From the NCBI GenBank assembly GCA_024275095.1, contig JAJRZV010000111.1:1-14164 (forward strand): 14,164 bases of DNA, read 5' to 3'. The notes under the pieces were generated by a model, which did no database searches, was not told the DNA's origin, and saw nothing but the letters and a program-made list of their open reading frames with translations. The position numbers were made by a program, and so were the translations under genes. The DNA is from a bacterium. Lineage in GTDB: Bacteria; JAJRZV01. This document shows, one piece after another, positions 2,505 through 14,092 of this stretch (the first letter of the stretch is position 1; every line of letters begins with the position of its first letter).

Positions 2505-3395
2505 GGTTTCCCCTCGCAGGGTTTGTATAGCAGGTGCAACAGGATTTATCGGTAACACCTGACACGTTACCTGATCAATAGAGAATTTCAGGTCAGATTG
2601 ATCCTTACACGAGAAACAGACGTTCCTGCGGGAGCAGAGGCTGTTCTGTGTAATCTGTTAAATCCCGAGTCGTGCGGCCACGCAGTGAGTAAGTGTCATA
2701 CGGTTATCAACTTGATAGGCCTTATAAGGGAAACAGAAACAAGAAACTTCAGGACATCTCATGTTGACATACCGGCAATACTTGCACGTGTGGCCTCAGA
2801 AGCAGGGGTTAAACAATTTATTCACGTGAGCGCACTTGGTGCATCACAAAATAGCATTAGCATATATAAGATAACAAAAGCAGAAGGTGAAGCGGCCGTG
2901 CGTGCTCATTTCCCTTCAGCCGTCATTGTTCGTCCTTCAGTGGTGATGGGTGCCGGGAATAAGTTTTTCTCCACGGTAGCATTGCTGGCGAGGTTTTCTC
3001 CCGTCCTGCCCGTTCCCAGGCCGAGTTTTAAATTAAGGCCGGTTCACATTGAGGATTTATGCGAGTGCATCGGAAATGTTGTGGAAAAGGGGATAGAGGG
3101 TACGGTTATTGAAGTGTGCGGTCCCGATGTTATGACCAATGCGGAATTGTTCAAGTTTGCTTTAAAAGTGTGCGGCCTGCGTAGATTGCTGATACCTGTC
3201 CCCCTGTTTGTCGCCGAACTTGGTGCAGCATTAATTTCCAGAATATTTCCAGAAGTTACATTTTCTCGTGATAGTGTAAGGGCTCTGAGAGAGGGTGATA
3301 ATGTATGCGCTGATAATTCTACATTTGTACAGGTGCTTGGTCATGAACCCAGAGCTGTTTCACTTAAGGACGTAAAGAGGGCGTGCGGGAATTAG
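2497..3395 (+). pseudogene. NDUFA9-like NAD(P)-binding SDR/epimerase, frameshifted
   Basis: An extended/atypical short-chain dehydrogenase of the NDUFA9-like type, about 299 residues if restored. Translation can start at GTG 2497, inside the end of the dksA-like gene, with GAGGAG at 2481-2486 as ribosome binding site. The first 21 codons end in the Rossmann motif AGATGFIGNT and then meet TGA at 2560-2562. The rest continues without a gap in homology in another frame (LTRYLINREFQVRLI from 2559) to TAG at 3393-3395. One lost base, most simply a C in the CC run at 2558-2559, explains this. Downstream features include a YxxxK pair in IYKITKAEGE, the RPSVVMGAG motif and RPVHIEDL, as in the family. 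A start at TTG 2598 would lack the cofactor-binding glycines. It is a true frameshift mutation or a sequence error. The physiological substrate is unknown. Confidence 0.8.
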
Positions 3396-4279
3396 ATGAT
3401 AATAGGTTGAGGCGTAAAGGAAAGCATTAATACCATCAGTGTGATAAATCCCATCAGGTAATCACGCGGTCGCAGAGGGGCTCCCATTCCGATGGGAGGA
3501 TGAAAAACACCGAGAACAGCATTAATGCCTCCCCACACAATCCATCCCGGCCATTGAAATATTCCCAGTAGAAACAATCCGGCGAGAGACATCACTGCTA
3601 CTGGTCGCGAGAAAGAAGGGTATAGTGCTGTGACCACGTGCCCTCCATCCATTTGCCCGATGGGTAGAAGATTCATTGATGTGACCAGGTACCCGATCCA
3701 GCCGGCAAAAGCAATAGGATGTAACACCACATCCTGGTTTTCAGGAATGCTGCCAATGACAAATTTCGTTATGAGTTTCAATGCAAGAGGCTCTCCAAGG
3801 AGAATCCCGTTGCCTGAAAGTGGCTTCACCTCGGAAAGGTGAAGGCCGATGACAAGAGCAATTGTCTAAAATATGAATCCCGTGAGGGGTCCAGCGAGGC
3901 CGATGTATAACAGGGATTTACGGGAATAAACAGGGTCTTTGATTTTGATGAAAGCACCGAATGTACCCAGGAAAAAAGGAACCGGAATAAAGTAGGGAAG
4001 GGTGGAACGCACCCCGTAATATCGTGCGGCCGTATAGTGTCCGATTTCGTGTGAGCCAAGAATAAGCATGAGAGTGATGGAATATGGCAGTCCCTTTACG
4101 AGTTGCCAGGGTTGGGTAAAAACATCCGCTCCTTCAAATACGGCCCCGACGAACGTGGTCGTGAGGAGAGTTAGAAGGGCAAGAATAATGTTTAAGCGAT
4201 AAGACTCCTTTTTTGGCGCCGGTTCTCTGTACGTTGTTGTGTAGATGAATTCCTGGTCGTTCACAGAGGTACTCTTCAA
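3392..4279 (-). pseudogene. Site-2 protease family (M50) membrane peptidase with in-frame TAG
   Basis: One reading frame of 295 codons broken only by a TAG at 3866-3868 (codon 138). The N-terminal part has a transmembrane helix (about 30-48), then the zinc motif HEIGH at 77-81 in GSHEIGHYTAARYYG, and PYFIPVPFFLGTFGA plus GLAGPLTGF, resembling EGY-type site-2 proteases. After the stop the same frame continues (TIALVIGL...) to NLLPIGQMDGGH, the second active-site motif with the zinc-binding Asp, and further hydrophobic helices. Both catalytic halves are thus intact but on separate open frames; reinitiation at GTG 3829 would make a second peptide. The TTG at 4279 lies four bases past the hisD stop; GTG 4264 is an alternative start. 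It is the last gene of the rpmE-hisD operon. Nonsense mutation, sequence error or, less likely, readthrough. Confidence 0.82.
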
Positions 4280-13820: not shown

Positions 13821-14092
13821 GTGCTTCAGTCGTTCGTTACCTCGCAATGACTGAGGAGGTGGTGCCATTGCGAGTCCTACATCTGGCGGGACGAAGCAAT
13901 CTTTTGGCACATGCACCAGGGCGTCAATGGAGGGTTGTGGATCCGCGATTGCTTCGTCGCTCGCTTTGACTTGCTCCTCGCAGTGACTGATGGGATGAGA
14001 CTGCTTCGGTCGTCCTTCCTCGCATGCCTCCTCGCAGTGGCTGATAGGGATATTCGCAACAGACGGAACTCCATCGCAATAACTGGACGAGG
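13821..14092. repeat. Cluster of degenerate interspersed palindromic-type repeats
   Basis: Four related units share the ends TGCTTCGTCG and CTCGCARTGACTGA. Unit 1 (plus) is about 13821-13854. Unit 2 (minus) is about 13864-13901, starting GCCATTGCGAG and ending GACGAAGCAATC. Unit 3 (plus) is about 13947-13991, starting GATTGCTTCGTCGC and ending CTCCTCGCAGTGACTGAT. Unit 4 (plus) is about 13999-14046. A decayed fragment may sit at 14068-14092. Units 2 and 3 face each other and could fold into a long hairpin. From memory, similar 'GATTGCTTCGTCGC...CCTCGCAATGAC' elements are scattered between genes in several environmental bacterial phyla. They are non-coding. Confidence 0.7.

Follow-up and report, generated by a model that had tools for sequence, protein, structure and literature searches.

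The protease gene and its internal stop codon

The window (the whole stretch of DNA that was analysed, 14,164 nucleotides) is an entire contig (C79) of a draft bacterial genome of 2.45 Mb in 136 contigs. On its minus strand, a frame of 295 codons for a peptidase of family M50 (site-2 protease) begins 3 bases past the hisD stop, and its sole interruption is a TAG (Table 1), as had been pointed out in a sequence-only reading of this DNA. That reading had also placed both M50 active-site motifs in one frame and described an alignment that continues across the TAG, and both observations were borne out. HEIGH is located about 60 codons upstream of the TAG and NLLPIGQMDGGH 65 codons downstream in the same frame, and the residues GPLTGFIF (3892-3869) directly precede the stop. 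When the frame is read through, the PF02163 profile matches as one stretch that spans the TAG (residues 67-225, profile positions 3-200, E 2.5e-21), with a score of 76.5 bits vs a curated cut-off of 27.2.

The gene therefore carries the features of an M50 member, namely HExxH, NxxPxxxxDGG in the same frame past the TAG, and a profile score above the cut-off. What it lacks as assembled is the uninterrupted frame of a single membrane protease, and this departure, a single TAG, is believed to be a consensus error. A search of the genome itself recovered the same locus, flagged as containing '1 TAG', and no further copy of this M50 gene. No solved structure matching the protease by sequence was found.

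Table 1. Positions of the protease features in the window and of lone stops elsewhere in the genome that are discussed in the text
Feature	Position	Strand	Basis
Peptidase M50 (site-2 protease) frame with one internal TAG	3392..4279	-	PF02163 unbroken across the stop; 105 homologues
In-frame TAG at codon 138, probably a consensus error	3866..3868	-	Homologue alignment and genome-wide context
HEIGH, the HExxH zinc motif of M50	4037..4051	-	Sequence
NLLPIGQMDGGH, second M50 active-site motif	3638..3673	-	Sequence
GTG, proposed re-initiation start, without spaced Shine-Dalgarno	3827..3829	-	Sequence
Hairpin, stem CUUCACCU/AGGUGAAG, 21 bases past the start of the stop codon	3822..3847	-	Folding
prfB, lone TAA	Stretch L182 (contig C21) 8711	+	Profile and solved-homologue alignment
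dnaE, lone TAA	Stretch L182 (contig C21) 1989-1991	-	Profile and solved-homologue alignment
Second M50 protease, lone TAA at codon 38, in conserved GDHTA-stop-RAGRLTLNPLAH	Stretch L157 (contig C16) 1186-1184; gene 1297-593	-	

Homologues at the position of the stop

By scanning GTDB contigs and 59 other genomes, 105 usable homologues were collected, chiefly from Neomarinimicrobiota and other uncultured groups, with about 37-61% identity. In tblastn they align across the TAG, with a sense codon at this column in 104 and a gap in the remaining one (Ala 75, Ser 19, Thr 6, Cys 4, gap 1), and none of the 105 has a stop there. Mean identity among 102 homologues was 58% before the TAG (residues 60-137) vs 45% after it (residues 139-232). 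The GTDB contig scan for close relatives returned nothing above about 50% identity. The source is a poorly sampled, deep-branching bacterium, and the comparison genomes include no other member of its phylum.

Lone in-frame stops elsewhere in the genome

A total of 1.45 Mb of the same genome (about 59%) was screened in stretches, and a stop was counted as a lone stop only if a family profile or homologue alignment continued across it. At least ten further lone in-frame stops were found inside conserved genes. One NCBIfam profile stretch spans the stop in eight genes, namely prfB, dnaE, biotin carboxylase (of the acetyl-CoA or pyruvate carboxylase type), proB, nadB, the NiFe hydrogenase small subunit, gspE, and mtaB. 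DnaE, biotin carboxylase, ProB, the hydrogenase, and RF2 could be aligned without gaps through the stop to solved homologues. A lone TAA was also detected in a methyltransferase domain and in a second M50 protease (Table 1).

Together with the TAG in the window there are eleven lone stops, of which eight are TAA and three are TAG. A TGA was proved in no case, an absence that is not significant given an expectation of 23% if substitutions were uniform. The residues replaced differ from gene to gene, being Ala/Ser in the M50 protease, Glu in the hydrogenase homologues, and Glu/Asp in those of proB.

Both prfB and dnaE are single-copy in this genome. The prfB TAA lies well downstream of the autoregulatory frameshift site (CTT TGA C), which is present and distinct from it. 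The stops in the two genes are less than 7 kb apart on the same contig.

In a homology screen that covered 40,788 codons, three clear nonsense lesions and no frameshift were detected, and the reverse screen, over 77,040 codons of DNA from relatives, turned up no more than one plausible internal stop. A codon-usage scan for genes split within one frame was also tried and set aside; it produced many false matches at gene boundaries, such as where glutamine synthetase precedes an amidotransferase or adenylosuccinate synthetase precedes a DUF4388 protein, and in the control genome G057 it returned mostly antisense frames.

Two observations were made in the draft control genome G057. Its main dnaE (C1:2464900-2468900) has one in-frame TAG (KLVPF-stop-IGMTLHKAL), which is a lesion of the same kind in a second draft genome. 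Its prfA (C1:1186000-1201500) is split into two parts that lie 11 kb from each other on opposite strands, and a perfect inverted repeat of 39 bases inside the gene (about 1995-2033 and 14003-14041 of stretch L286) joins them. Since TAG is an ordinary stop in G057, this split is probably a misassembly.

RNA structure downstream of the stop

Right after the TAG, an unusually stable RNA structure is predicted (3766-3868), which includes a perfect hairpin of 8 pairs (z between about -3.4 and -5, according to the shuffles used). When the 103 bases past each lone stop were folded, 3 of the 11 sites (M50, gspE, and nadB) reached z <= -2.5, vs 1.8% of 500 random coding windows, with a probability of about 1e-3 before any correction. 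The other eight sites showed no strong downstream fold, and a fold of equal strength is seen at this place in 4 of 101 M50 homologues with sense codons. The folds at the three sites are therefore regarded as either chance or a feature that promotes sequencing errors. As a candidate readthrough signal the structure was rejected, being absent at most sites and present in some homologues that have no stop, and it is left as a weak, unexplained signal.

Origin of the stop

Four options had been proposed for the TAG: a recent nonsense mutation, a base-call error, readthrough, and a two-piece protease. The second of these is favoured here because many lone stops occur in conserved genes, essential single-copy ones included. 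Replication depends on the polymerase DnaE and termination at TGA on RF2, and lesions of the same type as that in the protease are found in the genes of both. A true loss of both DnaE and RF2 in the living cell is not credible; because the cell cannot lack either, a background of substitution-type consensus errors gives the best account of the lone stops. Lesions that consist of substitutions only and do not spare essential genes have the look of consensus errors. The TAG in the window is thus probably one of many single-base substitution errors in the consensus of this draft assembly, and the gene an ordinary one-piece M50 protease.

The lone stops would accordingly have arisen in sequencing or assembly, possibly through Illumina-type substitution errors at low coverage, and at these sites sense codons would be present in the living cell. 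With some 10 stops among roughly 435,000 coding codons, and with 3.9% of random substitutions leading to a stop, the implied error rate would be roughly 2e-4 per base. It has been reported that substitutions predominate among the errors of Illumina sequencing, which may not be the platform of the present assembly, that G/T and A/C transversions are the commonest of them, and that errors are more frequent around inverted repeats (PMC4719071). The TAG in the protease gene adjoins a strong hairpin. Literature searches for erroneous stop codons in metagenome-assembled genomes returned nothing that bears directly on the matter.

Second in rank, and unlikely, is a genuine nonsense mutation of recent origin in a protease gene that the cell can do without, which would make the gene a young pseudogene or the stop a polymorphism of the sequenced population. 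This explanation takes the sequence as assembled; an M50 protease is not essential in general, and the lesion is single, with the remainder of the frame open and conserved on both sides of the TAG. On the other hand, the same type of lesion in essential single-copy genes implies that this assembly yields such stops without any biology, and the homology screen revealed no frameshifts, which are the usual companions of gene decay.

Readthrough or recoding, in which amino acids would be inserted at these TAG and TAA codons (at the M50 gene perhaps aided by the downstream hairpin), appears very unlikely. Conserved sequence does go on in frame past all eleven stops, and the bases that follow three of them fold unusually well, but most of the sites have no such structure and some sense-codon homologues fold alike. 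Furthermore, the machinery and the pattern of use speak against it. All 43 tRNAs detected have sense anticodons, and neither CUA nor any other stop-reading anticodon is present among them, although an atypical tRNA could be missed in an assembly that is 97% complete. For pyrrolysyl-tRNA synthetase (PylS), the N-terminal domain model (TIGR03912) had no match, and the C-terminal model (TIGR02367) reached 26.8 bits against its cut-off of 178, a weak match of the kind that most control genomes also give.

The sequence-only reading had treated TAG as a normal stop on the grounds that RF1 is encoded alongside and that rpmE (9612-9412) and the epimerase gene (2598-3395) both end in TAG, and these statements hold: prfA is intact within the same run of minus-strand genes, and both genes terminate as described. 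Among 590 genes of at least 200 amino acids, 315 end in TGA and 275 in TAA or TAG, of which 54 end in TAG, so that TAG is neither rare nor absent as a terminator. The residues replaced are also unlike between genes. A broader version, in which this deep-branching bacterium would tolerate TAA and TAG in many housekeeping genes through frequent readthrough, in some of them hairpin-aided and without a dedicated suppressor tRNA, is highly improbable.

Least plausible is a two-piece protease, in which an upstream part ending at the TAG would assemble with a downstream part started at the GTG 13 codons past it; both halves are open and conserved, but the homologues checked continue as one chain through this point, a start at the GTG would lose TIALVIGLHLSE, which lies just past the TAG and belongs to the family alignment, and the GTG is a poor start site because the only purine-rich stretch nearby is a GAG that abuts it without the spacing of a ribosome-binding site.

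The preferred explanation of a consensus error also suggests how a lone stop in a draft genome can be judged, namely by seeking the same lesion in genes that the cell cannot lose. As this test points to consensus error, no claim of a pseudogene or of recoding should rest on codon 138, and further single-base anomalies in this genome should be confirmed by reads.

Comparison with known systems

The lone stops resemble substitution errors in a draft metagenome-type consensus in being scattered over unrelated genes, essential ones included, with no frameshifts seen; the difference is that such errors are deduced here from the assembled sequence. With pyrrolysine (UAG) or another stop reassignment, the M50 gene shares an in-frame TAG in a conserved frame and a downstream hairpin, whereas this genome has neither PylS nor a suppressor tRNA, TAA is affected as well, TAG terminates genes, and unlike residues are replaced. 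With the M50 site-2 proteases (PF02163), the gene in the window shares HEIGH and NLLPxGQMDGGH, the continuous profile match, and the identity to bacterial homologues; it differs in having a TAG between the motifs, which no homologue has. By its motifs, the protease is presumably nearest to the EGY-like single-chain bacterial members of the family.
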